Source of the DNA: Rhodobacteraceae bacterium HLUCCA12
GTDB taxonomy: Bacteria; Pseudomonadota; Alphaproteobacteria; Rhodobacterales; Rhodobacteraceae
Length of the DNA: 64,000 nucleotides
Direction: 5' to 3'
NCBI GenBank assembly: GCA_001314715.1
Contig: LJSV01000002.1
Span: 62,001-126,000, forward strand
Shown here: positions 12,555-52,145 of the stretch, one piece after another
Position numbering within the stretch: the stretch's first letter is position 1
Layout: each line of letters begins with the position of its first letter
Translations under genes and position numbers: made by a program
Notes under the pieces: model-generated
Told to the model about the DNA's origin: nothing
Databases searched by the model: none
What the model saw: the letters and a program-made list of their open reading frames with translations, nothing else

Positions 12555-12691
12555 AGGGAAACGCGCATGGGCACGGATAACATGGCTGGGCACGCGTTCC
12601 GCGATTGCCGGAACCCGCAGCGCGTTTCAGTCCTTGCGAACGCCGTTTTCCTGCCGTCGCGGGGGCGGATGACATCCGAAGGAGACCTGGG

Positions 12692-13957
12692 ATGAATGAA
12701 CTGGCCCCGTTGGGCAAACCCGATCCGCTGCGTTGCGGCTGCGACGACGCGCGGGGTTTGCCGGTCGATGTGGCGCTGGCGCGCGGGCTTGCGGCCCTGC
12801 CAAGGATGCGCGGCGTCGAAGACTTGCCCTTGTCGCTGGCAACCGGGCGCGTGCTGGCGCATCGCGTTTGCTGCCCGCAGCCATTGCCGCCGTTCGACAA
12901 TGCGGCGATGGACGGCTATGCGATCGCCGGTTCGTCCTTGCCGGGTGCCGGGCCATGGGTCTTGCCGGTTTCCGGGCGCGTTCGCGCCGGCGACGCACCA
13001 GGCCGCCTGCAACCCGGCACGGCATGTCGCATTCTGACCGGGGCGCCCCTTCCCGCCGGTGCCGACACCGTGGTCGCCCAGGAGGCGGTGCGCGTCCAGG
13101 GGGGCAGGGTCATCCTGGCGTTTCGCCCGCGTTCGGGCGCGCATATCCGCCGTGCGGGCGAGGATATCGCCCAGGGTGCCGAGATCCTGGGCGCGGGCCG
13201 TGTCATCGGCTCGCGCGAGGCGGCAGCGCTGGCATCGGCGGGATGCGCAGGGGTGGCCGTGCACCCGCGCGTGCGGGTGACGCTGCTGGCGACCGGATCC
13301 GAGCTGGTCGAACCCGGCGCGCCGCTGGCGCCCGGCCAGATCTGGAACTCCAACCGCTATCAGCTTGCCGCGGCGTTGGCGCAGCCCTGGATCGCCTTGA
13401 CGGACCGGGAGGCATTGCCCGACACGCCCGATGCCCTGCTGCAGTTCTTTGGCCAGACCGCGGCACACGCCGAACTGATCGTGACGACCGGCGGCGTCTC
13501 GGTCGGTGACGAGGACCATATGCGCGCGTTGTTCCAACAGGCCGGCGGGACGATCCTTGCCAGCGATCTGGCGATGAAGCCGGGCAAGCCGGTTACGCTG
13601 GGCCGGTTGGGGCAGGCGCTGTGGCTGGGTCTGCCGGGCAACCCGGTGGCGGCGCATGTGGGCTGGATGGTTCTGGGCGCGCCGCTGGCGCAGGTCATGG
13701 CCGGCCTGTCCGAACCGGGTCCACGAAAGATCGTGGCGCGGCTTGCCGAAACCGTCGAGCACCGGCCGGGACGCTGTGAGTATCGGCTGGCCCGCCTGCT
13801 GGGTCACGATGCGCGCGGCGCGCTGCAAGTGCGGTGTCTGCCGGCGCCGGGCTCGCACCGCGTCGCCCAGATGGCGCAGGCCGACGGGCTTGTCGCGCTT
13901 CCTGCCGATGCCGAGGTGCTGGCCGCTGACGCGCTGGTGGATTTCTTGCCATTCTGA
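12692..13957 (+). CDS. moeA: Molybdopterin molybdenumtransferase MoeA
   Basis: PPFDNAAMDGYAI, TGAPLPAGADTVV, TGGVSVGDEDHM, GLPGNPVAAHV. Confidence 0.95.
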   Translation: MNELAPLGKPDPLRCGCDDARGLPVDVALARGLAALPRMRGVEDLPLSLATGRVLAHRVCCPQPLPPFDNAAMDGYAIAGSSLPGAGPWVLPVSGRVRAGDAPGRLQPGTACRILTGAPLPAGADTVVAQEAVRVQGGRVILAFRPRSGAHIRRAGEDIAQGAEILGAGRVIGSREAAALASAGCAGVAVHPRVRVTLLATGSELVEPGAPLAPGQIWNSNRYQLAAALAQPWIALTDREALPDTPDALLQFFGQTAAHAELIVTTGGVSVGDEDHMRALFQQAGGTILASDLAMKPGKPVTLGRLGQALWLGLPGNPVAAHVGWMVLGAPLAQVMAGLSEPGPRKIVARLAETVEHRPGRCEYRLARLLGHDARGALQVRCLPAPGSHRVAQMAQADGLVALPADAEVLAADALVDFLPF

Positions 13958-30996: not shown

Positions 30997-32262
30997 TCAG
31001 CGGCTTGCGCGTTCCAGAAAGTCGATCAGCGCCGCACGGTCGCGCGGATCGCTGATGCGCTGGTCGGGCATGCGGCTGCCGGGGGTGTAGACCTCGGGTC
31101 CGTGTTCGAACAGGGCCGAGACGGTCTCGCGCGTCCAGACGATATCCATCGACCGCAGCGCTTGCGAATAGGCGTACCCCGGTGCGCTGGCGATGCGGCG
31201 GCCCAGAACGCCGTGCAGCGTTGGACCCGCGCGGCTGTTGTCGCCCGGCGACAGGCTGTGACACACGGCGCAGGCCCGCCAGACCCGCGCGCCGCGACTG
31301 CCGTCGTCGTGGTCGCCGGATGCCTGCGTGGCGCTTTGCCCCTGTCGTTCGCCATCCCTGGCCGACCATCGCCGGATCGTGCCATCGTTGCCGGCGCCCA
31401 GAAGGGTGTCGCGATCCAGCGCCAGCGCCCAGACCGGGTCGGCCCCGGCTGAAACGGTGAACCGTTCCGACAGATCTTGGTCCTCAAGCACCCAGACCGT
31501 CCCGTCGATTGCGGCCGCTGCGACGGCACCTGTGCCCGCCGCAACCGCGACCAACGGACGGTCGGTCAGGAACCGCTGGGGAAGTTGTGAACCATCGGCC
31601 GCATAGAGCCGTAAGGCGCCATCGGCAAAGACCACGGCCAGCCGACCTTCGGTCACGGCCAGCCCGTTGGGGCGGGCTGCCAGCCCGGCACGCGCCGCAA
31701 GCTGCGAAGCTCTGTCCCAGATACTCAGACGCAGATCGTCGCCCACGCTGGCCAGATGCCCGTCCGGCAGATACGCCAGACCGGTCAGTTGCCCCTGGTG
31801 CGCCTGATGGTCCTGCACGCTGTGATCATCCAGTGACATGCGCGCGATGCGCCCGTCGCCAAAGCCCGCGGCCAGTGTTGCGTCATCGGGGGCCAAGGAC
31901 AACGCCACGATCGGTGCATTGGTGTCGGGGGTGGCGAATGTCGGCCGTTCGACCGCACCCTGCCAAAGTGCGATGCGCCCGTCCTGACCGCCCGTGGCCA
32001 GCATCCCGCCAGGCAGGAATGCGACGGCGGTCACGTTCCCTTCGTGAAAGTGCTGGATCTGGCGGGCCGCGCCGGTGTCGAGATCCCAAAGGATCGAACG
32101 TGTGTCGAACCCGCCCGACAGGACCTGCCCGTCACGTATGGCCAGTGCGCCCACCGGGCCGCCATGTCCGGCAAGGTCTTGTGCCGATGCAGCCATGCCT
32201 TGCAGCGTGGCGCAAAGGGCAAGCCCGCGCATTCCGGTCAGGATCCAGCGTCGCCTAGTCAC
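30997..32262 (-). CDS. WD40-repeat beta-propeller fused to a C-terminal class I cytochrome c domain, exported
   Basis: Signal peptide, repeated ...GGFDTRSILWDL/GGQDGRIALWQ/GNDGTIRRWS blades, then CAVCHSL...GPTLHGVLGR...MP; GTG start at 32262. Confidence 0.88.
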   Translation of the reverse strand: MTRRRWILTGMRGLALCATLQGMAASAQDLAGHGGPVGALAIRDGQVLSGGFDTRSILWDLDTGAARQIQHFHEGNVTAVAFLPGGMLATGGQDGRIALWQGAVERPTFATPDTNAPIVALSLAPDDATLAAGFGDGRIARMSLDDHSVQDHQAHQGQLTGLAYLPDGHLASVGDDLRLSIWDRASQLAARAGLAARPNGLAVTEGRLAVVFADGALRLYAADGSQLPQRFLTDRPLVAVAAGTGAVAAAAIDGTVWVLEDQDLSERFTVSAGADPVWALALDRDTLLGAGNDGTIRRWSARDGERQGQSATQASGDHDDGSRGARVWRACAVCHSLSPGDNSRAGPTLHGVLGRRIASAPGYAYSQALRSMDIVWTRETVSALFEHGPEVYTPGSRMPDQRISDPRDRAALIDFLERASR

Positions 32263-32457: not shown

Positions 32458-33546
32458 CTATCGTTTTTGATCGTTCAGAGAGTCAATCATGCCGCGCGCG
32501 ATTGCGCCGAACGCCCCTCCTATCGGGCCGTCGGGTTGGCTGGCGACAACGGGGCGGCCACGATCCGAGGCCTCGCGCAGTTCCATCGTCAGCGGAACGG
32601 CGCCCAGAAAGGGTACGCCCAGGCGTGCGGCCTCGTCACGTGCGCCACCCTGGCCAAAGATGGCGTGTTCGCCGCCGCAATCGGGGCAGACGAAATGGGC
32701 CATGTTCTCGACCAGACCCAGAATCGGCACATCGACCTTGCGGAACATGGCGATCCCGCGCCGCGCGTCGATCAGCGACAGATCCTGCGGCGTCGAGACG
32801 ATCACCGCACCGGCAAGTTGCGTGCCTTGCGCCAGCGCCAGTTGCGCATCGCCCGTGCCCGGCGGCATGTCGACGATCAGCATGTCCAGCGCCCCCCAGT
32901 CGACATCCGCGATCATCTGGGTGATCGCCGACATGACCATGGGGCCGCGCCAGATCATGGCGGTCTCTGGATCGACCAGAAGGCCGATCGACATCGCCTT
33001 CAGGCCATAGGCATCCATCGGCCTGAGCTTGCGTCCCTGGGTCGTTTGCGGCTTGCCGGTCAGGCCCAGCAACGTGGGCAGTGACGGGCCGTAGATATCG
33101 GCGTCCAGAACGCCCACCGTGTAGCCCAGGGCGCGAACGGCAAGTGCCAGGTTGACGGCGGTGGTGGATTTGCCCACGCCGCCTTTGCCCGAGGCCACGG
33201 CGATCACATGGCGCACGTCCGCCAGTGGGCGGGGCGCGGGGGACGGGGCATCCAGTGTCGGAGGGGTTTTCGGCGGTGGCGGCGCGGCGGATTCGGCGGT
33301 CAGGACGACCATGGCTTGCGTCACACCCGCCAGCTCACGCAGGGTGACTTCAGCGGCCGCGCGCACCGGGGCGAATGCCGCCGCCTCATCGGGTCGAATG
33401 CGAATGGCCAGGCTGATCTTTCCGTTGGTGGCTGAAAGCCCCTCGATCCGGCCCGAACCCGCCAGATCGCCGCCGTCAGGCATGGCGACCGTGGCCAGCA
33501 CGTCGCGGGCACGATCAATGAGCGAGGGCGCGAAACGGGGTGTCAT
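32458..33546 (-). CDS. Mrp/NBP35-family Fe-S carrier ATPase (ApbC)
   Basis: VIAVASGKGGVGKSTTAVNLALA, DADIYGPSLPTLLG, DMPPGTGDAQLAL, VCPDCGG. Confidence 0.95.
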   Translation of the reverse strand: MTPRFAPSLIDRARDVLATVAMPDGGDLAGSGRIEGLSATNGKISLAIRIRPDEAAAFAPVRAAAEVTLRELAGVTQAMVVLTAESAAPPPPKTPPTLDAPSPAPRPLADVRHVIAVASGKGGVGKSTTAVNLALAVRALGYTVGVLDADIYGPSLPTLLGLTGKPQTTQGRKLRPMDAYGLKAMSIGLLVDPETAMIWRGPMVMSAITQMIADVDWGALDMLIVDMPPGTGDAQLALAQGTQLAGAVIVSTPQDLSLIDARRGIAMFRKVDVPILGLVENMAHFVCPDCGGEHAIFGQGGARDEAARLGVPFLGAVPLTMELREASDRGRPVVASQPDGPIGGAFGAIARGMIDSLNDQKR

Positions 33547-33642: not shown

Positions 33643-34629
33643 CTACTCGGCCGGGCTGATCTGTGCGTCGTTGCGGGCCTTGGTGTCCTTGACGTCCTCG
33701 ACCCAGAGCGAGTGATGCTCCTTGGCCCAGTTCTCATCGACCTCGCCGGTGCCCATGGCGTCGAATGCGCCCTCCATGCCGACCGAACCGATATAGATAT
33801 GCGCCAGGATCAGCGCCGACATGGCCGCCGCCACCAGCGCGTGGATCACCTGAAAGAACTGCCAGTCGGTGGCACTGCCGGCTTCGGCCGGGAACAGCAG
33901 CATCACCCCGGTAAAGGACATGATCGCCCCGCCCACAATGACCGACCAGAACACCACCTTCTGGCCAAAGTTGAACTTGCGCGCCGGCGGATGAACGCCT
34001 TTCTTGAACAGCCCGCCGCCTTGCTTGATCCATTCCAGATCCAGTTTCGACGGAATGTTGTGGATCACCCACAGCAGGAACACCATGATCAGCGCAGCCA
34101 TGAACGGCCAGGCCAGGTAGTTGTGCGCGATCTTGCCCCAGGCGGTCAGCGTGCCGAACGCGCCTTCGCCCAGAAGCGGCAGTACGACGGTGCGCCCGAT
34201 CACCAGGTTCAGCCCGGTCAGGGCAAGAACGATGAACGTGCTGGCCAGCATCCAGTGGGCAAAGCGCTCAATGGCATTGAAGCGCAGGATCTTGCGGCCC
34301 GAAAAACCGCCGTCGATGCGGATACGACCCCGGATCAGGTAGAACAGGACCAGGATGGCCAGCGTCCCCAACACGGCGACGATCGACAGGGTCTGCAAGG
34401 TATCGCCCTGCATCGCGGCCCATAGCTTGTTGTCTGGCGAAATCAGGCTGGCCGCCCCGTCATCGGGGATCGAGGCGCGACCCCCCACGGCCTCGCCCGA
34501 TTGCAGGGCGCGCAGCAGCGCGTCCTCGTTAACGGATTCGGCGGTCGGGTTGACCTGCGCCAGCGCCGTTCCGGCCCAGACCAGCGGGACTGCCGCGACG
34601 GTGGCGAGGCGCGATAGCGTGTTCGTCAT
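33643..34629 (-). CDS. Formate dehydrogenase subunit gamma (cytochrome b556)
   Basis: RFNAIERFAHWMLASTFIVLALTGLNL...HIYIGSVGMEGAFDAMGTGEVDENWAKEHHSLW. Confidence 0.95.
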   Translation of the reverse strand: MTNTLSRLATVAAVPLVWAGTALAQVNPTAESVNEDALLRALQSGEAVGGRASIPDDGAASLISPDNKLWAAMQGDTLQTLSIVAVLGTLAILVLFYLIRGRIRIDGGFSGRKILRFNAIERFAHWMLASTFIVLALTGLNLVIGRTVVLPLLGEGAFGTLTAWGKIAHNYLAWPFMAALIMVFLLWVIHNIPSKLDLEWIKQGGGLFKKGVHPPARKFNFGQKVVFWSVIVGGAIMSFTGVMLLFPAEAGSATDWQFFQVIHALVAAAMSALILAHIYIGSVGMEGAFDAMGTGEVDENWAKEHHSLWVEDVKDTKARNDAQISPAE

Positions 34630-34654: not shown

Positions 34655-35251
34655 TCATACGGAGACCGTCTCGCCATAGGCCGTGCGCCAGCCCCAGGCG
34701 CCCGAACCATAGCCGCGCGTGACCACGCGCTCGCGGTAGATATCGGCGATGATGTCGCCGTCGCCAGCCAGCAGCGCCTTGGTCGAGCACATCTCGGCGC
34801 ACAGCGGCAGCTTGCCTTCGGCCAGGCGGTTGGCGCCGTATTTTTCATACTCCGCCGCGCTCAGATCGGCCTCGGGCCCGCCCGAGCAATAGGTGCATTT
34901 GTCCATCTTGCCGCGCGTGCCGAAATTGGCGGTCTGCGGATACTGCGGCGCACCGAAGGGGCAGGCATAGCTGCAATAGCCGCACCCGATGCAGGTGTCC
35001 TTGTTGTGCAGGACCACCGCATCCTCGGTGGTGTAGAAGCAATCGACCGGGCAGACCGCGGCGCAGGGCGCATCGGTGCAGTGCATGCAGGCCATCGACA
35101 CCGAGCGTTCGCCCGGCAGGCCGTCATTGATGGTGATCACCCGCCGCCGGTTGATGCCCCAGGGCACCTCGTGCTCGTTCTTGCAGGCGGTAACGCAGGC
35201 GTTGCACTCGATGCAGCGGTCGGCGTCGCAAAGGAATTTCATCCGTGCCAT
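34655..35251 (-). CDS. Formate dehydrogenase beta subunit (4Fe-4S)
   Basis: CIECNACVTACKNEHEVPWGINRRRVITINDG...four Cys clusters. Confidence 0.96.
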   Translation of the reverse strand: MARMKFLCDADRCIECNACVTACKNEHEVPWGINRRRVITINDGLPGERSVSMACMHCTDAPCAAVCPVDCFYTTEDAVVLHNKDTCIGCGYCSYACPFGAPQYPQTANFGTRGKMDKCTYCSGGPEADLSAAEYEKYGANRLAEGKLPLCAEMCSTKALLAGDGDIIADIYRERVVTRGYGSGAWGWRTAYGETVSV

Positions 35252-35267: not shown

Positions 35268-38225
35268 TTACGCGGCTTCGATCTGGCAAAGCGTGACCTT
35301 GCCTTCGTGCATGCCGGTCACCGGGTCATAGCCGTAGGTGGTGATGACATTGACGGATTCGCCCAGCACGATCGGGTCTGCCCCCTCGGGGTATTTGCCC
35401 CGCTGATCCTCGCCCTGGAACCAGCCGGCAAAATGAAAGGGCATGAACGCCAGCCCCGGATTCACCCGCTCGGTCACCAGTGCCTTGACCCTGGCGCGCG
35501 ATTCCCCCTCGGCCCCGGTCACCCAGACCCAGCCGCCATCGACGATGCCGCGCTCCTCGGCGTCCTGCGGATTGATCTCGACGAACATGTCCTGCTGAAG
35601 CTCGGCCAGCCAAGGGTTCGAGCGCGTTTCCTCGCCGCCCCCCTCGTATTCCACCAGCCGCCCCGAGGTCAGCACGATCGGGAAGTTTTCTGCGACCCGG
35701 TTGTCCACATTGGCCATCTGGATTGTGTGGCCGATGTTGGGCATCCGCTGGTGGCGGCTGTCGTCGCGCGTCGGATAATCGGCGACCAGGTCGGGACGCG
35801 GCGAATAGATCGGTTCGCGGTGCACTGGGATCGGGTCGGGCAGATTCCACGCCACGGCGCGGGCCTTGCCGTTGCCGAAGGGCACGCAGCCGTGTTCGAT
35901 CGCCACGCGCTGAATGCCGCCCGACAGGTCGATCGACCAGCTGACGGCGCCGGGATCGTCGCCGCCGATGCGTTCGATCGTGGCGCGTTCCTCGTCGGTC
36001 AGGTCGGCGTCCCAGCCCAGCTGTTGCAGCAGGGCATAGGTGAACTGCGGATACCCGTCCTCGATATCCGATTCCGGGGGCCAGTTGCCCTCGGCCAGAA
36101 GGGTTTCGCCATCACGCTCCAGCCCGAAGCGCGGCCGGAAGGCGCCGCCGCCGTCCTTGACCGGAATGTTGGGGTTGTAAAGGATATGGGTGCCCGGATG
36201 GCGGAACTCGGGCGTGCCCCAGCAGGGCCAAGGCAGGCCATAGTAATCGCCGCGCACCTCTTCGGGGGCGTCATCGCCGGCGCGCAGGGTCACCAGGTCG
36301 AAATGTTCCTGGTATGCGATATGGGCCTTCAGCCGCTCGGGCGACTGGCCGGTATAGCCGGTGGACCAGCCGCCGCGATTGATCTCGCGCAGGATCGACT
36401 CGGCCGAGGGTTCCGGTCCGAACTTGCCCTCGATCATGTCATAGGGTTTGAACATCTCGTCGGCGAAGCCCAGCTTTTCGGACAGGCGGTAGATGACCGC
36501 GAAATCGTTGTCCGATTCAAAGATCGGATCGACGATCTTTTCGCCCCACTGGACGGATCGGTTGGACGCCGTGCGCGAGCCGTTCACTTCGAACTGGGTG
36601 CAGACCGGCAACAGATAGGTGTTGTCGCTGCGTGAATGCAGCGCGGCAAAAGTGGTCGGGTGCGGGTCGGCCACGACCAGCAGGTCCAGCGCATCCATGC
36701 CGCGCTGGGCGTCCTGCATCCGTGGCACGGTGTTGCCGCCGTGCCCCATGACGATCATCGCCTTGATGTTGTCGCGCTGATCGACCTCTTCGGCATCCAG
36801 AAGCGCGGCATCGAACCAGCGCGTCGAGGTGATGCCGGGCACACCCATGTTCTGTTCGGGGGTGCGCGCATCGCGACCGCCCTTGGCGGGCACTTCGTCA
36901 AAGCGGCTGACGAAATAGTCATAGGGCACGTCCCAGACCCGCGACCAGTGGCGCCACGCCCCTTCGCCCAGGCCGTAATAGCAGGGCAGGTTGGCCACAT
37001 CGAGTCCGAAGTCCGTCGCCCCCTGAACGTTGCAGTGGCCGCGGAAGATATTGGCGCCGGTGCCGGGGAAGCCCACATTGCCGGTTGCCAGCAAGAGGTT
37101 GCAATAGGCGCGCACGTTCGCGGTGCCGACCGTGTGCTGCGTGCCCCCCATGCACCAGATGAAGGTCGAGGGCTTTTGCGTGGCAAAGGTTTCTGCCACC
37201 CGTGCCAGCGTGTCGCCGGGGATGCCGGAGATGTCTTCGACGACATCCGGGGTATAGGCCTGCACCGCCTCGCGGATCTGGTCCATGCCCCAGACCCGCT
37301 GATCCAGGAATTCCTGATCTTCCCAGCCGTTCTCGAAGATGTGCCACATGATCCCCCAGATCACCGCGATGTCGGTGCCGGGGCGGAAGCGGACATATTC
37401 GGTGGCATGGGCCGCGGTGCGGGTGAAGCGCGGGTCCAGCACGATGACGTTGGCGCGGTTGAGCTCCTTGCCCTCAAGGATGTGCTGCAACGAGACCGGG
37501 TGCGCCTCGGCCGCGTTGGAGCCCATGAAGATCACGGTCTTCGAGTTGCGGATGTCGTTGTAGCTGTTGGTCATCGCGCCGTAGCCCCAGGTATTGGCCA
37601 CGCCGGCGACGGTGGTCGAATGGCAGATCCGCGCCTGGTGATCGACATTGTTCGTGCCCCAGAAGGCCGCGAACTTGCGGAACAGATACGACCCCTCGTT
37701 CGAGAACTTCGCCGACCCCAGCAGATAGACGCTGTCGGCGCCCGAATTCTCGCGGATATCCAGTAGCTTGTCGCCGATCTCGTCGATCGCGTCTTCCCAG
37801 CTGATGCGCTGCCATTCGCCGCCCACCTTCTTCATCGGGTATTTCAGGCGACGATCGCCGTGGACCAGTTCACGCACCGATGCGCCCTTGGCGCAATGGG
37901 TGCCGCGGTTGATCGGGCTGTGCCAGCTGGGTTCCTGGCCGACCCAGACCCCGTTCTGCACTTCGGCGGTCACGGTGCAACCGACCGAGCAATGGGTGCA
38001 GATGTTCTTGCGGCGCTCGATGTCCTGGCTGTGGTCGGTCGGCCCGGCCTCGGCCCGGCGGGTCATTCCGGCGCCGATGCCGCCAAGGGCGGCAAGCCCG
38101 GCCACGCCCAGCCCGGACGACCGAAGGAAGCTGCGCCGGTCGATCGGCTTTGCCGACAGCCCCGCCGCCATCTGCGACAGACGGCCGCCCTGCGCGGCCT
38201 CACGGGTTCTGCGTTTGACCAGCAT
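35268..38225 (-). CDS. Formate dehydrogenase alpha subunit (TAT-exported, Mo/W-bisPGD, Cys-type)
   Basis: RRSFLRSSGLG TAT motif; CTHCSVGCTVTAEVQNGVWVGQEP; active-site RICHSTTVAG (Cys rather than Sec). Confidence 0.96.
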   Translation of the reverse strand: MLVKRRTREAAQGGRLSQMAAGLSAKPIDRRSFLRSSGLGVAGLAALGGIGAGMTRRAEAGPTDHSQDIERRKNICTHCSVGCTVTAEVQNGVWVGQEPSWHSPINRGTHCAKGASVRELVHGDRRLKYPMKKVGGEWQRISWEDAIDEIGDKLLDIRENSGADSVYLLGSAKFSNEGSYLFRKFAAFWGTNNVDHQARICHSTTVAGVANTWGYGAMTNSYNDIRNSKTVIFMGSNAAEAHPVSLQHILEGKELNRANVIVLDPRFTRTAAHATEYVRFRPGTDIAVIWGIMWHIFENGWEDQEFLDQRVWGMDQIREAVQAYTPDVVEDISGIPGDTLARVAETFATQKPSTFIWCMGGTQHTVGTANVRAYCNLLLATGNVGFPGTGANIFRGHCNVQGATDFGLDVANLPCYYGLGEGAWRHWSRVWDVPYDYFVSRFDEVPAKGGRDARTPEQNMGVPGITSTRWFDAALLDAEEVDQRDNIKAMIVMGHGGNTVPRMQDAQRGMDALDLLVVADPHPTTFAALHSRSDNTYLLPVCTQFEVNGSRTASNRSVQWGEKIVDPIFESDNDFAVIYRLSEKLGFADEMFKPYDMIEGKFGPEPSAESILREINRGGWSTGYTGQSPERLKAHIAYQEHFDLVTLRAGDDAPEEVRGDYYGLPWPCWGTPEFRHPGTHILYNPNIPVKDGGGAFRPRFGLERDGETLLAEGNWPPESDIEDGYPQFTYALLQQLGWDADLTDEERATIERIGGDDPGAVSWSIDLSGGIQRVAIEHGCVPFGNGKARAVAWNLPDPIPVHREPIYSPRPDLVADYPTRDDSRHQRMPNIGHTIQMANVDNRVAENFPIVLTSGRLVEYEGGGEETRSNPWLAELQQDMFVEINPQDAEERGIVDGGWVWVTGAEGESRARVKALVTERVNPGLAFMPFHFAGWFQGEDQRGKYPEGADPIVLGESVNVITTYGYDPVTGMHEGKVTLCQIEAA

Positions 38226-38228
38226 GAC

Positions 38229-38438
38229 TCATTCCTCCGGGCGGTAGTAGCGATTGGTGCGGTAGAACGTCTCGACGTGCTCGGTTTCGCGGTAGCGCGC
38301 GCGGGTGCGCTCGTCGCCGGTTTCCCGGGCCATGACCGGCCGGGCCCCGCCAACGCTCAGCGCCGAGGCTGCCCCCGCACCAAGGGCCGCGCCAAAAAGG
38401 CCGCGCCGGCTGATGCGGTTTTCACGATGCTTCGTCAT
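38229..38438 (-). CDS. Small TAT-signal formate dehydrogenase accessory protein (FdhX-like)
   Basis: RISRRGLFGAALGAGAASALSVGGA...YRETEHVETFYRTNRYY directly upstream of fdhA. Confidence 0.85.
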   Translation of the reverse strand: MTKHRENRISRRGLFGAALGAGAASALSVGGARPVMARETGDERTRARYRETEHVETFYRTNRYYRPEE

Positions 38439-38494: not shown

Positions 38495-39100
38495 TCATGC
38501 CGCCAGGGCAAAGGCCCTGGCGTCGATATCCACAAGCAGTCGCCCGATCTCGGCCATCGGGCGATAGAAGGCCGCGCTGGGCGCAACGGCCAGATCGTCA
38601 AAGAAGCGGCCGGCCCAGGGGGCAAGGTGGCGCTGAAAGAACGCGGACTGTTCGACGGGATCGGTGTCGATCTCGCCCGCGGCCATGGCGCCCATCACCT
38701 CGAACAAAAGGGCGATATGGTCCTCGGGTTCATGCCGATCCCTGGCGCGGGCGATGCCCAGCCGCGCCAGATCGCCGCGCAGTTCGGCCAGCGGCCGTTC
38801 GTTCAGAAATCCGGTCATGTAGAAACTGGCATAGGGCAGCAGTTCGCCGCGGCCGACACCGATGAACAGCTCGAAATACTCGCGCTCGACGGTCCTGGCG
38901 TCGGTTTCGCGGGCGGCGCGTGCCAACGCCCCATAGGCCTGACCCAGCGGCGTCGCATCGCCCTGAAGGGCGGCGGCGGCGTCAAGCATGGCCTGATCGG
39001 GGGGGGCGGCAAGAAGGCGGGACAGGAAGCGATATTGCGCGCTTCGCAGCAGATCGACCGTATCGCTCGCTGGCCCGGAGCCGGGCTGGCTTGCCGTCAT
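38495..39100 (-). CDS. TorD/DmsD-family molybdoenzyme chaperone
   Basis: REYFELFIGVGRGELLPYASFYMTGFLNERPLAELR...EPEDHIALLFEVM. Confidence 0.92.
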   Translation of the reverse strand: MTASQPGSGPASDTVDLLRSAQYRFLSRLLAAPPDQAMLDAAAALQGDATPLGQAYGALARAARETDARTVEREYFELFIGVGRGELLPYASFYMTGFLNERPLAELRGDLARLGIARARDRHEPEDHIALLFEVMGAMAAGEIDTDPVEQSAFFQRHLAPWAGRFFDDLAVAPSAAFYRPMAEIGRLLVDIDARAFALAA

Positions 39101-39230: not shown

Positions 39231-39884
39231 CTAGCTGGGCATCGCCCCGCCATGGCGCCGGCGGGACCGGTCCGGTGCAGGCTGCGCCGCGCCAGTTTCA
39301 CGCCCTTTGGGGTCATCAGATTGTCCCGTCGCCTGACCTTGGGGTTCGGGCGCGGCGGTCTTGTGCGGATCGCGTTCGCCGGTGTCGGATTGCGCAGGCG
39401 GTGCACCGGGCTGATCTGCGACTGGCTCGGTCTCGCGAATTGCGGGGCGCGGCGCCTTGAGAGCCTGGGCCATCTTGCGAATGCTGTCTGCCGTCAGGAT
39501 GCCGCCATCGCCCGGCACCCCACCCGGCGTGTTCCAATCCCAGGCGTAATCGACCGCGCAATCGACATGATCGCGGATGGCCGGCGTCAGAAGCCACATC
39601 TTGCGCATGGCGGCATTCCTGAGGGGGGCCGGGACACCGGGGCGCAGGAAGGGGCGCAAGTCGCTCTCGGCGGTCAAGGTCTCGATCCTGGGCAGGGCGG
39701 CCAGTTCCGCCTCGCTCACGGGGGGCGGTTCGTCGGGCAGGAATGGATCGCCGGGCGTGGGGGCCTCGGTCTCGTCATCCTCGGGCCGCTGTGACGGGTC
39801 TGCCCGGCGGTCCAGGGCCTTGCGCTGCGACCAGCGATCCAGGAACGATCCGCCGCTCATGTCTGACCCTCGGGTTTGTGCCAT
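39231..39884 (-). CDS. DUF3306 protein
   Basis: FLDRWSQRKALDRR...RPFLRPGVPAPLRNAAMRKMWLLTPAIRDHVDCAVDYAWDWNTPGGVPG. Confidence 0.88.
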   Translation of the reverse strand: MAQTRGSDMSGGSFLDRWSQRKALDRRADPSQRPEDDETEAPTPGDPFLPDEPPPVSEAELAALPRIETLTAESDLRPFLRPGVPAPLRNAAMRKMWLLTPAIRDHVDCAVDYAWDWNTPGGVPGDGGILTADSIRKMAQALKAPRPAIRETEPVADQPGAPPAQSDTGERDPHKTAAPEPQGQATGQSDDPKGRETGAAQPAPDRSRRRHGGAMPS

Positions 39885-40387
39885 TTCTGTTCGGGCGGCA
39901 GGATGCGGGGCGCGCGGGCCTGCAAGGCGTTCGGATCGCTGGGCTGGCGCTTGCGTTTCTTGAACGGGATGTCGACATGGTGGCGCGCCACGAAAGCTGC
40001 CAGCGCGTCGCGGATCGCGGCGGGCATCGGCACGGCCTCGACCGTGGCGTCGTCGTCGCCGGCGAACCCCTCGCCCTCATAGGGATCGACCGTGATGCAC
40101 GCCAGTTCGGCGGTGGCCGGGTCCTGCCCGCGCAGCGCCACCCAGACCGAAGGACGGCCAGAGTTCAGATTGTCCATGTGATGCGAGGTGTCGCCCGAGA
40201 ACAGCACCATTTCCGCGGCACCCAGATACCAGGTCTCGGTGCCGCTTTCATCGGTGATCAGGGTGCGGGGCGCCAGCGCGGGCACTTGCGGCAACACCGC
40301 CGACGGGCGCAACTGCGCCTGCCCCCAGCGCGTGACCGGTGGGCGGCGCATCGCCAGAACGCCCAGATGCAAGACCTCTTGCGGCAT
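39857..40387 (-). CDS. DUF3305 protein
   Basis: MRRPPVTRWGQAQLRPSAVLP...TWYLGAAEMVLFSGDTSHHMDNLNSGRPSVWVALR. Confidence 0.87.
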   Translation of the reverse strand: MPQEVLHLGVLAMRRPPVTRWGQAQLRPSAVLPQVPALAPRTLITDESGTETWYLGAAEMVLFSGDTSHHMDNLNSGRPSVWVALRGQDPATAELACITVDPYEGEGFAGDDDATVEAVPMPAAIRDALAAFVARHHVDIPFKKRKRQPSDPNALQARAPRILPPEQKWHKPEGQT

Positions 40388-40401
40388 CGTTTCCCCCCTT
40401 G

Positions 40402-41394
40402 TCATCCCGCCGCGGTTGGCGCGGCCAGCGGCAACCCCGTCAGCAGGTTTTGCGGCTTGACCCTGATCGACATGTCGGGCGCCAGCCCCAGGATCAACCA
40501 GACAGGGTGCCCGGCCACATCTGGCAGCACCGCCGACGACCCGGCGAATTGCAACTCGAACAGCCCGACCAGGGTATCGCGCGGGCTCTGCCCTTTCCAG
40601 AGCGCATTTCCGATGGCGGTTCCGGCCTGGTCCAGCCCGACGAACCAGCGCAGGTCGATGCCATCGGCGCGGGTGTGCGGCGTAACCGTCACCGCATACC
40701 CGGTCATGTGGGTGACAAAGGCTTGCAGCGCGCGGGCCAGACCCTGACGTGCCAGCGGATCGCCGCCGAAGTTCAGCACCGTGGTATGCGCATCCGATCG
40801 TGACCAATAGGTCCATTCGTTGCCGCCACCCAGCACATCCAGCCCGTCAATCCCGCCCGAAAACATCGCGGTCAGCGGCGAGCTGTGCATCTCGGCCTCG
40901 AACGCCTGTGTCAATTCCTCGTCGGCCAGGAGCAGGGTGCCGTCCCTGACATGCGCGCGCTGGGGCCGGAACAGCAGTTCGGCGGCGCGCAGCACCTGGG
41001 CATCGCCACATCCGTCAAGGGCGTTGCGCAGGATCAGCTGCACCAGCTGGTTCATGAACACGATCGGCAGACGCATCCTGCGGTGCACGATATCGGCATA
41101 TCCCCCCTCGATCGTGCTTGCCGCGACCAGGGCGTCGCGCAACGCCAGCAGGAAGCCCCAGTTTTCGCGGGCGTCGGGGTCGGCCATGGCCGCCAGATCG
41201 CCCGGTTCGACCTGCGCACGCGGATCTGCCATGAGCCGGGCATAAACCGCGCGTTCGACGGCGCAGGCGTCCGTCGGTGGCACCACCTCGGGTCGGGCAA
41301 GCCAGGCAAGCAGCAACTCGTCGGTGACGATCATGCGACCCGACCGGTCCAGCCGGGTCAGATGATGGCCGCTTGCAACCCAGAATTCCGGCAT
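40402..41394 (-). CDS. DUF6352-like protein of FDH-associated cluster
   Basis: FWVASGHHLTRLDRSGRMIVTDELLLAWLARPEVVPP; conserved neighbour of DUF3305/3306; family name from memory. Confidence 0.7.
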   Translation of the reverse strand: MPEFWVASGHHLTRLDRSGRMIVTDELLLAWLARPEVVPPTDACAVERAVYARLMADPRAQVEPGDLAAMADPDARENWGFLLALRDALVAASTIEGGYADIVHRRMRLPIVFMNQLVQLILRNALDGCGDAQVLRAAELLFRPQRAHVRDGTLLLADEELTQAFEAEMHSSPLTAMFSGGIDGLDVLGGGNEWTYWSRSDAHTTVLNFGGDPLARQGLARALQAFVTHMTGYAVTVTPHTRADGIDLRWFVGLDQAGTAIGNALWKGQSPRDTLVGLFELQFAGSSAVLPDVAGHPVWLILGLAPDMSIRVKPQNLLTGLPLAAPTAAG

Positions 41395-41942
41395 CAATCG
41401 CCCCCGCGCAGGGCAAACAGGTCGATCGCGGCGTCCGCATCTTCCTCGACGATGTGAAAGGCGCGGTCGTGTCCTTGCAGATAACCCTGACCAAAGGCGG
41501 TTTCACGGCGCGGCGTCAGCGTGCGGAACTGTTCGCGGATATTGCCACCCTCGAACCGGCGGTAAAGGGCGATCAGCGTGTTTTCGGGGTGGTCGCGGCA
41601 CAGGCTTTCGGCCAGCGCCACCTCTTCCTCGGCGGCGGGCAGCGCGGTGGCCAGATCGGGCGCGCCCAGCCGTTCGACCAGCTGGCCCGCCAGTTGGCGC
41701 ACCATGGCTGCGCGTTCGGCCGTGCTGGCGGGCTGCACCACCACGAGGGTGGAGTGGCCAAAGCTTGCCAAACCCAGAAACCCGCTGCGAAAGGCGATGG
41801 CCTCCTTGCGGGTCAGGCTTTCGGCATCGCGGCCCCAAAACAGGAACGTCCCCGGCACGGCCCATTCGCCGGGTTCGGCGGCATGGGCGAAGACCACGGT
41901 ATCCGACGCGTCAAGGCGGATCGTGCGCGGCAAACGGGTCAC
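41394..41942 (-). CDS. DUF6505-like protein of FDH-associated cluster
   Basis: LPRTIRLDASDTVVFAHAAEPGEWAVPGTFLFW; overlaps its neighbours by 1-4 nt; family name from memory. Confidence 0.65.
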   Translation of the reverse strand: MTRLPRTIRLDASDTVVFAHAAEPGEWAVPGTFLFWGRDAESLTRKEAIAFRSGFLGLASFGHSTLVVVQPASTAERAAMVRQLAGQLVERLGAPDLATALPAAEEEVALAESLCRDHPENTLIALYRRFEGGNIREQFRTLTPRRETAFGQGYLQGHDRAFHIVEEDADAAIDLFALRGGD

Positions 41943-42649
41943 AGGTTCGGCCCCTTCTTGCCGCGCCAGCCGGTCTGGCCCAGCGCCGCCATCAGCGGCG
42001 GATGGCGGCGCCCGCCGGATGGCGTGATCTCGACCAGCCGGTCCCCTTCGAACCGGCGGACACCGCGCAAAAGCGGCGGATCGATGCGCATCAGATAGCG
42101 GTTCGTGACCGACTCCAACCCCTCATGGGTCCAGCGGTCGAAATAAAGCATCATGTAGGAGGCGAATGTCGCGACGATCATGTCAGCCGGGTCGAACCCC
42201 TCTTCCTTGAGCGAGAGGCTGTCGGGGCAGTCGCCGGGATGCGCCAGGTGGTCGCGGTCGGCGATCAGTTCGGCGGCAAAGACCATCCAGTCGGGCACCG
42301 CGTCCGGCCCGCAGCCCGGCGCAACCCGAAACCGCCCGCCACCCAGTCGCGCCCCGTCAAAGCGCACCTCGTCCGGCCAGACAAAGCGCACCGGGCGTTC
42401 GGGCGGGCAGTGCGCTGCGAGCGCGTCGCCCAGCGCGGTCATGCCCAGAATGAACGCCATCTGCGCCTGTTCCAGCGGCGCGTCGGGTTCCAGAACCACC
42501 GCGAAGGCCAGCAGGCCCGGCCCCTCATGCAGGACCAGCGTGCCCGCGCCATGTTCGTCGGCCAGGGCGGCCGCTTCCTCCAGCACGTCCTCGCCCGATG
42601 CGCGGATCGGGGTGAACGGCGGTGGCAGCATCAATGTCTCTTGCACCAT
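41939..42649 (-). CDS. Biotin/lipoate A/B protein ligase-like protein
   Basis: LLAFAVVLEPDAPLEQAQMAFILGMTALGDALAAHCPPERPVRFVWPDEVRFDGARLGGGR resembles the LplA/BirA catalytic fold. Confidence 0.75.
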   Translation of the reverse strand: MVQETLMLPPPFTPIRASGEDVLEEAAALADEHGAGTLVLHEGPGLLAFAVVLEPDAPLEQAQMAFILGMTALGDALAAHCPPERPVRFVWPDEVRFDGARLGGGRFRVAPGCGPDAVPDWMVFAAELIADRDHLAHPGDCPDSLSLKEEGFDPADMIVATFASYMMLYFDRWTHEGLESVTNRYLMRIDPPLLRGVRRFEGDRLVEITPSGGRRHPPLMAALGQTGWRGKKGPNL

Positions 42650-42782
42650 GGCGATCCTCTTCCCAGTCGCAGTCTTGCGCGTTGCGCAGTTCACGGCAAG
42701 GCGTTCTTTCGGGTGGCTATCCAAGACGCCGGTCGCGGGCTATATCGGAAGAAATAAGCCATGCGCCAGCCAGGGGAAGCCC

Positions 42783-44768
42783 ATGCCAGTGACGCCGCGA
42801 CGGATTCTGACCTGCACCTGCGAAGGCACCATGCCCATCGACACCGCCGCCATGGAGCAGGCCGGGCTGTCCGTGACGGGAAAGCCCGCCCATCAGCTTT
42901 GCCGCGCCGAACTGGCACATTTCAAAAAGGCGCTGGGTGAATTCGCCGCCGTCACCGTGACCTGCACGCAAGAGGCCCCGCTTTTCACCGAGATCGCCGA
43001 GGAAGCGGGATTCGAGGGTGATCTGTCCTTCGTCAATATCCGCGAAAACGCCGGCTGGTCGGACGCGGCAGACCAGTCAGGGCCAAAGATGGCGGCGCTG
43101 GCGGCCATGGGCGCGGTCACACCGGCGCCGTTCGACCTTGTCACGATGGAAAGCGCAGGTGTCGCGCTGATCCTGGGGGCGGGACCCGAGGCGCTGGAGG
43201 TCGCCGAGACGCTGGCCGAGACGCTGGATATGACCGTGCTCCTGACCCCCGGCGCACGGGTTGCGCCGCCGCGCCAGACCGTCTTTCCGGTGCTGCAGGG
43301 GCGTGTGCGTCGCGCGCAGGGGCATCTTGGCGCCTTTGAACTGGTGGTCGATGACTACGCCGCCCCGGCGCCGTCCTCGCGCGATGAGTTGCGGTTCGAG
43401 GTTGGCCGCGATGGGGCGGTTTCGCGATGCGATCTGGTGATCGATCTGACGGGCGCGCCACCGCTTTTTCCGGCGGCCGACCTGCGGCCGGGCTATTTTC
43501 GCGCCGATCCGCGCGATCCCGTGGGCCTGTCGCGCACAACCCTGCAGGCCGCGCAGATGGTCGGCACGTTCGACAAGCCACGCCACATCGCGTTTTCGCC
43601 CGAGTTGTGCGCGCATTCGCGCAACCGGATCACCGGGTGCACGCGCTGTCTGGATCTGTGCCCGACCGGTGCCATTACCCCGGCGGGCGACAGCGTCGCC
43701 ATCGATGCCGAGATTTGCGCGGGCTGCGGGCAATGCGCTGCGGCCTGCCCGACCGGCGCGGCCGCCTATGCGCTACCACCGGTCGAAACCCTGGCCGAAC
43801 GGCTGCGCACGGGATTGGGCGCATGGTTTGCCGCCGGGGGCAGATCGGCGCCGGTCATCGTGCTGCATGACGCCGATCATGGCGCGGCCCTTGTCGAGGC
43901 CAGCGCACGCCATGGCCGCGGGTTGCCTGCCCACGCGATCCCCGTGCAGGTCAACGAACCCACGCAGATCGGCCCCGAGGGTCTGGCAGCAGCGCTGGCC
44001 TATGGCGCGGGGGGCGTGCGCATCGTGACCCGCGCGCGACCGACGCATCCCGTTGACGGGCTCGAGGAAACGCTGGCGCTGATCGACGTGATCTGCGCCG
44101 AAACCGGGTATCCGGCCGAAACCTGCGCGCTGATCCAGACCGACGACCCCGACGCGCTGGAGGACGCATTGTGGCGCCCCGCGGCGCGAGCGCGTGCCAC
44201 GCGCTCGACGTTCCTGCCGCCCGCCGACAAGCGCGGATTGCTGGTTCTGGCAATGTCGGAAATGAACCGCACGGCGCCCGAGCCCGCGCAAGACATCGAA
44301 TTGCCACCGGGCGCGCCCTTCGGCACGGTCGTGCTGGATGCGCAAGCCTGCACCCTGTGCATGGCCTGTGTCGGGGCCTGCCCGGCCGGCGCGCTGCACG
44401 ACAACCCCGATCTGCCGATGCTGCGCTTTACCGAAAGCGCCTGCGTGCAATGCGGGATCTGTGCCGCCACATGCCCCGAAGACGCGATCGGCCTGACACC
44501 ACGCATCGACATCGCCGCCTGGGACACGCCGCGCCGCCTTCTCAAGCAGGAAGAGCCGTTTTGCTGCACCGCCTGCGGCAAGCCGTTCGGCACGCGCTCG
44601 GCCATCGCGCGCATTCAGGACAGGTTGCAGGACCACTGGATGTTCGCGGGTCAAGACGGCGCCAGGCGCCGCGCGCTTCTGACCATGTGCGACGATTGTC
44701 GCGCGCGTCAGGTCGTTGAAGATGGTTTCGACCCGATCGACAAGGAAAAGACGACCGGGCCGCGCTGA
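42783..44768 (+). CDS. Large 4Fe-4S polyferredoxin-like protein of FDH-associated cluster
   Basis: CTRCLDLCPTGAI...CAGCGQCAAACPTGA and CTLCMACVGACPAGAL...CVQCGICAATCPEDAI; C-terminal CCTACGKPFG...CDDCRARQ. Confidence 0.9.
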   Translation: MPVTPRRILTCTCEGTMPIDTAAMEQAGLSVTGKPAHQLCRAELAHFKKALGEFAAVTVTCTQEAPLFTEIAEEAGFEGDLSFVNIRENAGWSDAADQSGPKMAALAAMGAVTPAPFDLVTMESAGVALILGAGPEALEVAETLAETLDMTVLLTPGARVAPPRQTVFPVLQGRVRRAQGHLGAFELVVDDYAAPAPSSRDELRFEVGRDGAVSRCDLVIDLTGAPPLFPAADLRPGYFRADPRDPVGLSRTTLQAAQMVGTFDKPRHIAFSPELCAHSRNRITGCTRCLDLCPTGAITPAGDSVAIDAEICAGCGQCAAACPTGAAAYALPPVETLAERLRTGLGAWFAAGGRSAPVIVLHDADHGAALVEASARHGRGLPAHAIPVQVNEPTQIGPEGLAAALAYGAGGVRIVTRARPTHPVDGLEETLALIDVICAETGYPAETCALIQTDDPDALEDALWRPAARARATRSTFLPPADKRGLLVLAMSEMNRTAPEPAQDIELPPGAPFGTVVLDAQACTLCMACVGACPAGALHDNPDLPMLRFTESACVQCGICAATCPEDAIGLTPRIDIAAWDTPRRLLKQEEPFCCTACGKPFGTRSAIARIQDRLQDHWMFAGQDGARRRALLTMCDDCRARQVVEDGFDPIDKEKTTGPR

Positions 44769-50024: not shown

Positions 50025-52145
50025 GTGATTACGCCCGATGACCTTGTTGCGCTGGTTCGCAACTATAATCCCGACTGCGACGAAGCCCTGATCCGCCGCG
50101 CCTGGGCCTATGGCGCGTCGATGCACGAGGGGCAGACACGCCATTCCGGCGAACCCTATTTCACCCATCCCGTGGCGGTGGCGTCGATCCTGACCGAAAT
50201 GCGGCTGGATGACGCGACCATCGTGACCGCCCTCTTGCACGATACGATCGAGGACACGCGCTCGACCCATGATGAGGTCGCGCGGCTTTTCAGCCCCGAG
50301 ATCGCCGAACTGGTCGATGGCGTCACCAAGCTGACGAACCTGCAGCTGTCATCCTCGGAAGCCAAGCAGGCCGAGAATTTCCGCAAGCTTCTGATCGCCA
50401 TGTCACGCGATCTGCGGGTGATTCTGGTCAAGCTGGCGGACCGTTTGCACAACATGCGCACGATCCGGTCCATGCGGCCGGACAAGCAGGCCCAGAAGGC
50501 CCGCGAAACCATGGACATCTATGCCCCGCTGGCCGGTCGCATGGGCATGCAGTGGATGCGCGAAGAGCTTGAGGATCTGGCCTTTCGCGTGCTCAACCCC
50601 GAGGCGCGCAATTCCATCCTGCGCCGCTTCATCACCTTGCAGCGCGAATCGGGCGACATCATCGCCCGCATTACCGCCGATATCCGGCTGGAGCTGGAAA
50701 AGGCCGGTCTGGACGGCACCGTGTATGGCCGCGCCAAGAAGCCATATTCGATCTGGCGCAAGATGCAGGAAAAGGATCTGGCGTTTTCGCGCCTGTCCGA
50801 CATTTACGGCTTTCGTATCATCGTCGATGACGTCGCCCAGTGTTATCAGGTGCTTGGGCTGATCCACCAACGCTGGCGGGCCGTGCCGGGACGGTTCAAG
50901 GATTACATCAGCCAACCGAAAACGAACGGCTACCGCTCGATCCATACGACGGTGTCGGGGCGCGACGGCAAGCGCGTCGAGGTCCAGATCCGCACCCGCG
51001 AGATGCACGAGGTCGCCGAGGCCGGGGTCGCCGCCCACTGGGCCTACAAGGACGGCACCCGCACCGCCAACCCGTTTGCCGTCGATCCCGCGAAATGGAT
51101 CGCGGCGCTGACCGAGCGGCTCGACGGTGGCGAGGATCACGACGAATTCCTGGAGCATGTCAAGCTCGAGATGTATTCGGATCAGGTCTTCTGCTTCACG
51201 CCCAAGGGCGACGTGGTCCAGTTGCCCCGCGGCGCCACCCCCCTGGATTTCGCCTATGCGATCCATACCCGCATCGGCAATGCCACGGTTTCGGCCAAGG
51301 TCGACGGGTTGCGGGTGCCGCTCTGGACCCGGCTGCGCAATGGCCAATCGGTCGAGATCATCACCGCCGAGGGCCAGCGCCCGCAGGCAAGCTGGATCGA
51401 ACTGGTGCATACCGGCCGCGCCAAGGCCGCGATCCGCCGCAGCCTGCGCGAGGAGGATCGCGAGCGATTCATCCGGCTGGGCCGCGAACTGACGCGCGTC
51501 GCCTTCGAAAACCTGGGGCGCCGGCTGACCGAAAAGGCCCTGGATACGGCCGCGCGCCAGATGGGGCTCAAGGGGCCGCAAGACCTGTTGGCGCGCGTCG
51601 GCAGCGCAGAGATCAGCGCGCGCGGGGTGGCCGAACAGCTTTATCCCGAGCTTGCAGCCGTCCAGACCGAAGAGATCGACGGCGCCCGCCCGGTTGTCGG
51701 CCTTGAACCCGGCCAGACATTTCGGCGCGCGAACTGTTGCCAGCCCGTTCCGGGCGAGCGGATCGTGGGCATCACCTATCGCGGCAAGGGGGTGGTGGCC
51801 CATGCCATCGACTGTGCGGTTCTCGCCGCGCTTGAGGACCAGCCCGAACGCTGGATCGATCTGCGCTGGAACGACGGGCGCCACCCGGCCATCCACACTG
51901 TCGCCCTGGAACTGACGATTTCGAACAGCGCCGGCGTCCTGGGTCGGGTCTGCACCTTGATCGGCGAGCAAAAGGCCAATATCTCGGACCTCCGGTTTCT
52001 GGATCGAAAGCCGGACTATTTTCGCCTCTTCGTCGAGGTGGATGTGCGCGATGCCGAACATCTGCACCGTATCCTGACGATGCTGAATGCGGAAAGCGAT
52101 GTGGCGCAGGTCATCCGGTTGCGCGATCCCAACAGACAGCCCTGA
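50025..52145 (+). CDS. rsh: Bifunctional (p)ppGpp synthetase/hydrolase (RelA/SpoT homologue)
   Basis: HD hydrolase (LLHDTIEDT), synthetase YGFRIIVDDVAQCYQVLGLIH, TGS and ACT domains. Confidence 0.97.
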   Translation: MITPDDLVALVRNYNPDCDEALIRRAWAYGASMHEGQTRHSGEPYFTHPVAVASILTEMRLDDATIVTALLHDTIEDTRSTHDEVARLFSPEIAELVDGVTKLTNLQLSSSEAKQAENFRKLLIAMSRDLRVILVKLADRLHNMRTIRSMRPDKQAQKARETMDIYAPLAGRMGMQWMREELEDLAFRVLNPEARNSILRRFITLQRESGDIIARITADIRLELEKAGLDGTVYGRAKKPYSIWRKMQEKDLAFSRLSDIYGFRIIVDDVAQCYQVLGLIHQRWRAVPGRFKDYISQPKTNGYRSIHTTVSGRDGKRVEVQIRTREMHEVAEAGVAAHWAYKDGTRTANPFAVDPAKWIAALTERLDGGEDHDEFLEHVKLEMYSDQVFCFTPKGDVVQLPRGATPLDFAYAIHTRIGNATVSAKVDGLRVPLWTRLRNGQSVEIITAEGQRPQASWIELVHTGRAKAAIRRSLREEDRERFIRLGRELTRVAFENLGRRLTEKALDTAARQMGLKGPQDLLARVGSAEISARGVAEQLYPELAAVQTEEIDGARPVVGLEPGQTFRRANCCQPVPGERIVGITYRGKGVVAHAIDCAVLAALEDQPERWIDLRWNDGRHPAIHTVALELTISNSAGVLGRVCTLIGEQKANISDLRFLDRKPDYFRLFVEVDVRDAEHLHRILTMLNAESDVAQVIRLRDPNRQP

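Follow-up and report, generated by a model that had tools for sequence, protein, structure and literature searches.

The closest mechanistic precedents for the gene set described here are, by analogy, NapF for NapA, the periplasmic nitrate reductase, and HydN/YsaA for formate dehydrogenase H (FDH-H): Rhodobacter NapA needs NapF for its iron-sulfur (Fe-S) clusters to be reconstituted in vitro (PMC10609526), and HydN/YsaA raise the activity of FDH-H (PMC6004506). The set lies at positions 39231-44768 of a 64,000-nucleotide stretch of the genome of Rhodobacteraceae bacterium HLUCCA12 (contig LJSV01000002.1, positions 62,001 to 126,000; hereafter, the window), next to the genes of a formate dehydrogenase (FDH), and it resembles the NapD/NapF systems in that a cytoplasmic polyferredoxin, which we denote PFd, and dedicated small factors are encoded together with an enzyme that carries a bis-molybdopterin guanine dinucleotide (bisMGD) cofactor and is exported by twin-arginine translocation (Tat). 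PFd, however, is about four times longer than NapF, with an N-terminal domain of the type found in HdrA (heterodisulfide reductase) and a CxxC...CxxC tail, and, unlike in the nap systems as described, it is accompanied by DUF3305, DUF3306 and a set that includes a pseudo-ligase of the LplA-like family. Another likeness is to FdhE of Escherichia coli, a cytoplasmic protein with paired CxxC motifs that serves exported FDHs only (PMC10609526), whereas PFd has a single CxxC...CxxC unit and no overall homology to FdhE was detected.

In gene content, the same core (DUF3305, DUF3306, fer4, a small Tat protein, TorD/DmsD and fdhGHI) is found in the TorD-fdh and DmsD-fdh loci of Bay et al. 2015, where DUF3305, DUF3306 and fer4 are listed beside fdh operons (PMC4464133). 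That study listed neighbours, and the LplA-like, DUF6505 and DUF6352 proteins and the HdrA domain were outside its analysis; it regarded DUF3305 and DUF3306 as putative membrane proteins, whereas neither has a hydrophobic segment in the locus studied here. In Shewanella oneidensis, SO_4506 is annotated as an iron-sulfur protein and SO_4507 as the FdhT chaperone (PMC5826389). Our searches of the literature found no biochemistry for DUF3305, DUF3306 or the ferredoxin, nothing relevant on DUF6352, DUF6505, DUF6494, DUF4444, the structure 3BFM or fdh3 accessories, and no association of 3BFM with FDH3. Nor did they find any mention of several points described below: that the core follows FDH3 one-to-one at the level of genomes, that the LplA-like family has lost catalysis, that PFd has HdrA ancestry, that the genes split into core and add-ons, and that DUF6494 belongs with them.

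We consider it likely that the set is devoted to assembling a respiratory FDH3-type enzyme in the cytoplasm, loading the catalytic subunit FdhA with Fe-S clusters and a molybdenum- or tungsten-containing (Mo/W) bisMGD cofactor prior to Tat export; as such, it is probably a system-specific molybdoenzyme maturation set, of a kind that is already known. Many Bradyrhizobium, Sinorhizobium, Methylobacterium and Rhodobacteraceae use FDH3-type enzymes to oxidize formate. Judging from its sequence, the enzyme in the window belongs to this type, since FdhB exceeds the cut-off of the NCBI equivalog model FDH3_beta, NF038355 (339 vs 240 bits). FdhA has a twin-arginine signal and the gamma subunit FdhC is a membrane cytochrome b, so that the enzyme is predicted to be Tat-exported and membrane-anchored.

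The evidence that carries the link between this enzyme and the set is their joint distribution. When the same 150 genomes, sampled across the phylum, were searched with each family (FdhA at E<=1e-100), FdhA, PFd, DUF3305 and DUF3306 were detected in an identical 18. FdhD, a general factor for formate dehydrogenases, is present in 56 of the 150, including all 18 with FDH3 and 38 that lack the set; therefore, the set tracks FDH3 rather than formate dehydrogenases at large. Among the same 18 genomes, DUF6505 is present in 12, a genuine LplA-like gene in 11 (that is, in 11 of the 12 with DUF6505) and DUF6352 in 7; the LplA-like match in one further genome (G016) was set aside as a housekeeping BirA, with GRGR present and nuo genes adjacent. 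At the class level, where 190 genomes were sampled, an FDH3-type FdhA is encoded in 29 (lowest best match >900 bits, compared with <=232 bits for other FDHs), all 21 genomes with an LplA-like gene fall within these 29, and so do 18 of the 19 with DUF6505; a match in G402 again proved to be BirA. The strict pairing of the LplA-like gene with DUF6505 that the phylum sample had suggested failed in the class sample, where several genomes (G422, G461, G420, G386, G362) combine the LplA-like gene and DUF6352 without DUF6505. Thus, the specific genetic association with one molybdoenzyme that marks a redox enzyme maturation protein was found both in the phylum sample (18/18 of 150) and in the 29-genome class test. 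The preliminary description of this DNA had claimed that DUF3305, DUF3306 and ferredoxin genes co-locate with formate dehydrogenases, a claim that these profiles bear out, together with the loci of Bay et al. 2015 (PMC4464133), and it had taken a failure of the cluster to co-occur with fdhA across genomes as a sign against the association; in the phylogenetic profile, the core members and FdhA do co-occur, in the same 18 of 150 genomes.

The genes of the set and those around it, with their coordinates in the window, are as follows.

39231-39860, minus strand: DUF3306 (PF11748; Pfam 1.6e-17, 64.8 bits vs gathering cut-off 25), core member
39857-40387, minus strand: DUF3305 (PF11749; Pfam 4.3e-34, 118.2 bits vs cut-off 25), core member
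40402-41394, minus strand: DUF6352 (PF19879; Pfam 1.6e-45, 156.3 bits vs cut-off 25), add-on
41394-41942, minus strand: DUF6505 (PF20115; Pfam 1.1e-57, 194.4 bits vs cut-off 23.9), add-on
41939-42649, minus strand: LplA-like protein, BPL_LplA_LipB_2 (PF16917; Pfam 1.5e-52), add-on
42783-44768, plus strand: polyferredoxin PFd, 661 aa plus stop (Pfam Fer4), core member
38495-39100, minus strand: TorD/NarJ-type chaperone (PF02613, 1.6e-32)
38229-38438, minus strand: small Tat-signal protein of 69 aa, formate_TAT-like (TIGR02811 2.9e-9, 37.1 bits, below the cut-off of 48.45)
35268-38225, minus strand: FdhA, Mo/W-bisMGD catalytic subunit with Tat signal RRSFLRSSG (TIGR01591, 9e-139)
34655-35251, minus strand: FdhB, FDH3-type beta subunit (NF038355)
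33643-34629, minus strand: FdhC, membrane cytochrome b subunit with strong hydrophobic segments (TIGR01583, 145.9 bits, above the cut-off of 115.85)
32458-33546, minus strand: Mrp/ApbC (NUBPL-type), Fe-S carrier ATPase (PF10609, 1.2e-98)
30997-32262, minus strand: fusion of a WD40 beta-propeller and a C-terminal cytochrome c domain

The six genes at 39231-44768 are located as the preliminary description had placed them and their family calls exceed the Pfam cut-offs, the one correction being that the ferredoxin, given there as 662 aa, has 661 aa plus the stop. Read from 42649 to 39231, the LplA-like, DUF6505, DUF6352, DUF3305 and DUF3306 genes form one coupled minus-strand operon, as tightly packed as had been reported, with overlaps of 4, 1 and 4 nt and a single 14-nt gap, between DUF3305 and DUF6352; a 133-bp divergent spacer separates the LplA-like gene from that of PFd. 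Beyond DUF3306, the minus-strand order continues with the TorD-like protein, the small Tat protein, FdhA, FdhB, FdhC, Mrp/ApbC and the WD40-cytochrome c fusion. The natural unit extends beyond 39231-44768 to include the TorD-like protein, the small Tat protein, FdhABC and Mrp. The source genome is 3.7 Mb in size, and the nearest named relatives of the locus are Rhodobacteraceae, among them Pararhodobacter, Roseibacterium, Cypionkella and Paracoccus bogoriensis.

Across the 80 best-matching GTDB loci, 51 of which are long, the order PFd / LplA-like / DUF6505 / DUF6352 / DUF3305 / DUF3306 / TorD / FdhA is nearly invariant, and chance can therefore be dismissed as an explanation of the arrangement. 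Each of DUF3305, DUF3306, TorD and FdhA is present in all 51 long loci and PFd in 50, whereas the LplA-like gene was detected in 47 and DUF6352 in 46; DUF6505 is the immediate neighbour of the LplA-like gene in 64 of the 70 loci where this could be tested. The association is not only a matter of operon hitchhiking because several genomes retain the genes without linkage: in G016, the genes are spread over hundreds of kb, with PFd, DUF6352 and DUF6505 far from fdhA, and all are kept except the LplA-like one; in G420, the LplA-like and DUF6352 genes, and in G449, DUF6505 and the LplA-like gene, are on a different contig from fdhA. On the FdhA tree, two changes account for the distribution of the add-ons, one that separates gammaproteobacteria (plus G019) from the rest and a single loss in G111. 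From the long-locus counts, the scattered genomes and this tree, we conclude that a core general to FDH3 consists of PFd, DUF3305, DUF3306 and the TorD-like protein, with the small Tat protein also counted in it, whereas the LplA-like, DUF6505 and DUF6352 genes are a largely alphaproteobacterial addition. The preliminary description treated the genes as one block; they split into core and mainly alphaproteobacterial add-ons. DUF6494 (PF20104), a protein of 63-68 aa with the motif FNMSxRKFLKxVGVTSQ, is a further member, counted with the add-ons, in many genomes, where it adjoins PFd, Mrp or DUF6352 (for example, L119:13743-13940, L122, L239-L246 and L253-L255); in the window, it has no match even at E 10.

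The surroundings of these loci include several recurrent features. Relatives of the WD40-cytochrome c fusion, which is possibly a periplasmic redox partner, recur near FDH3 clusters, in 16 of the 51 long loci and in many phylum loci. The set is also carried on plasmids, such as Tateyamaria omphalii pDOK1-4-4 (L253) and a plasmid of Sulfitobacter faviae (L255), the former with pyrroloquinoline quinone (PQQ) biosynthesis genes adjoining the set. Elsewhere in the window are a MoeA-like molybdopterin enzyme (12605-13957, plus strand) and a 68-nt tRNA-Ala(ggc) predicted by ARAGORN (51381-51448, minus strand), which is unusually short and possibly spurious.

A role in cofactor supply is indicated by a MobA-DUF3305 fusion family, by Mrp/ApbC and by neighbouring genes. 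DUF3305 matches the NCBIfam model of the MobA-DUF3305 fusion, NF011058, at model positions 221-367 of 382. Mrp/ApbC, an Fe-S carrier, lies beside or inside the cluster in 28 of the 51 long loci as well as in the window, and adjoins the LplA-like gene on the Sulfitobacter and Tateyamaria plasmids. Genes for FdhD, MobA, MoeA and a TupABC-like transporter flank the set in several genomes, and on plasmid pB of Sinorhizobium meliloti, TupABC-like genes, MoeA-type proteins, MobA and FdhD are all found around one complete copy. Genes for TupABC-like ABC transporters, together with an HTH-PBP_like regulator, flank the cluster directly in L121:15127-16604, L119:16247-17047, L135:14140-14973, L254 and L255, which suggests that some FDH3 enzymes use tungsten.

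The accessory proteins have no export signal and no membrane segment, whereas FdhA leaves by Tat, a route for folded, cofactor-filled proteins; the set is therefore placed in the cytoplasm, before export. DUF3306 is acidic and disordered-looking, with the N-terminal motif FLxRWSxRK. The AlphaFold2 models of DUF6352 (pLDDT, the predicted local distance difference test score, 94.6, a confident model) and DUF6505 (pLDDT 87, core >95) gave no usable fold match in Foldseek searches, with best E 0.26 in PDB and 0.33 in BFVD for DUF6352 and 0.92 in PDB for DUF6505; the best PDB matches had TM-scores of about 0.2 or less, so that, as far as the predicted models compare with PDB, neither family appears to have a solved relative. 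DUF3305 and DUF6352 were also compared with PDB as profiles, without a usable match.

PFd has been described as a ferredoxin-type protein, and it does contain ferredoxin domains, but it is more than a ferredoxin because its N-terminus is an HdrA-like domain. Its first 250 residues have no Pfam match, and a single-sequence search of PDB with the N-terminal part was negative, whereas a profile built from 22 homologues aligns collinearly with HdrA (8rvu) at E 2.3e-5; being visible by profile alone, the relationship is remote. The two proteins are alike in the collinear arrangement of the N-domain, in which four cysteines of PFd (11, 13, 40 and 61) are invariant, the start of the flavin domain and a ferredoxin domain, residues 278-341 of PFd aligning to residues 591-654, the C-terminal ferredoxin of HdrA. 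Conversely, PFd has lost most of the flavin domain, retaining about 150 residues of flavin-domain-like sequence in which the FAD (flavin adenine dinucleotide)-binding GxGxxG is degenerate (consensus GRDExA), and has gained a second ferredoxin domain, so that two double-cluster ferredoxin domains follow the N-domain, and the C-terminal CxxC...CxxC. The N-terminus of PFd is thus derived from HdrA, although PFd itself, lacking an intact GxGxxG and a full flavin domain, is not an HdrA.

The LplA-like protein had been read either as a ligase for acyl, biotinyl or lipoyl-type modification or as a repurposed binding fold, and the sequences favour the latter. Homology to the BirA/LplA fold is clear (BirA 1bia, E 2e-6 by profile), and along its full length the protein matches PDB 3BFM (profile E 6e-89), a member of the same family deposited as 'Biotin protein ligase-like protein of unknown function'. 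These matches are what speaks for an active ligase that would modify FdhA, FdhB, PFd or another protein of the cluster. All catalytic motifs are, however, gone: the GRGRRGR adenylate-binding loop is deleted in 24/24 relatives aligned with BirA, with no GRGR-type motif in 52/52; 52/52 lack the lysine of KWPND, the motif now being xWPDx; and the position of the catalytic lysine (BirA K183) is occupied by R, L or other residues, never K, in 52/52. By comparison, the genome's own BirA (L137) keeps all three features intact. Furthermore, none of the cluster's proteins was found to carry a lipoyl or biotinyl domain. We therefore reject canonical acyl or biotinyl transfer by this protein, and an active ligase of any such type is hardly credible. 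Instead, the family has acquired newly conserved residues (W91, P92, R106 in 48/52, P119 in 52/52, W121 in 51/52), and by its sequence the protein is a pseudo-ligase for which, given the loss of the catalytic motifs, a binding role is favoured.

Co-occurrence with the enzyme would arise for an electron-transfer or a regulatory partner as well. The set could be an electron-transfer module in which PFd, with Mrp or other proteins, links formate oxidation to the cytoplasmic redox pool or feeds CO2 reduction, with the DUF proteins as subunits; the HdrA-like N-domain and the two double-cluster ferredoxin domains are compatible with this, HdrA being an electron-bifurcating subunit, and HydN/YsaA have been considered possible alternative redox partners of FDH-H (PMC6004506). 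Yet, with FdhA exported by Tat and FdhC being a cytochrome b subunit of the quinone type, the catalytic side of the enzyme points away from PFd in the cytoplasm; in addition, the GxGxxG and most of the flavin domain have decayed or disappeared, and the PFd of gammaproteobacteria has no HdrA domain at all. Together, these points render such a module quite unlikely. A function in expression control or metal homeostasis, through sensing of formate, Mo or W, would fit with the tungstate-type transporter genes and HTH-PBP_like regulators that adjoin the cluster in several genomes, but these regulators are separate proteins, the Pfam scan detected no DNA-binding or sensor domain in the six proteins, and the one-to-one match of four core proteins with the enzyme suits assembly better; we regard this alternative as very unlikely.

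Under the assembly model that we prefer, the TorD-like protein would hold pre-FdhA by its signal and core and exert quality control, while PFd, with Mrp as the cluster carrier, would provide Fe-S clusters and/or electrons, a role that has been proposed for NapF towards NapA. DUF3305 might dock to the cofactor enzymes MobA and FdhD and aid the hand-over of Mo/W-bisMGD, with DUF3306 as a flexible adaptor; the pseudo-ligase would serve as a non-catalytic binding module and as a scaffold for DUF6505 and DUF6352 on FdhA or its cofactor, and the filled FdhAB would then leave via Tat. The data bear directly on the specificity for FDH3, the lack of export and membrane features, the loss of the ligase motifs, the HdrA ancestry of PFd and the linkage to molybdenum cofactor (Moco) and tungstate-type genes; the biochemical steps, and all contacts between the proteins, are what we infer from them, and taken singly the steps range from doubtful to possible. 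Also rather unlikely, as a specific version of the model, is that FDH3 maturation relies on a multi-protein machine for cofactor loading in place of FdhE, with the HdrA-derived PFd reductively activating or delivering both the Mo/W-bisMGD site and the Fe-S clusters, and the dead BirA domain recruited, along with DUF6505 and DUF6352, as a platform for cofactor or client.

Several observations weigh against assembly or temper the case for it. Gammaproteobacterial FDH3 loci have the core set alone, the add-ons thus being dispensable in nature; 8 of the 29 FDH3 genomes in the class sample lack the LplA-like gene; and G111 (L125), from the same genus as G035, has the core set in a rearranged order without the LplA-like, DUF6505 and DUF6352 genes, which makes it a natural test of add-on dispensability. 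A genome without FDH3 (G433) encodes a diverged DUF6505 relative (L248:5365-5793) in an unrelated locus, beside rnd- and aspS-like genes, where it either has an unrelated role or is an orphan. The chance of the identical 18-genome distribution under independence, 1 in 8e22, is a figure that ignores phylogeny. The MobA-DUF3305 fusion is known from the family model, not from a fusion among the loci here, and the support for the model from the absence of relatives of E. coli FdhE, the factor for periplasmic FDHs, in 254 loci (best E 0.86) comes from a search of loci rather than whole genomes. Finally, our literature searches turned up no experiment on any member of the set.

Respiratory formate dehydrogenases are in demand for CO2/formate chemistry, and molybdoenzymes produced in a foreign host often depend on cognate factors; if the assembly model is correct, co-expression of the set might yield active enzyme. 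In addition, the model would provide the first function for the orphan families DUF3305, DUF3306, DUF6352 and DUF6505, probably along with DUF6494, and the first assigned function for the pseudo-ligase family, including the function-less structure 3BFM. The LplA-like family, in that case, would illustrate cleanly how a ligase fold can become a component without catalytic activity.

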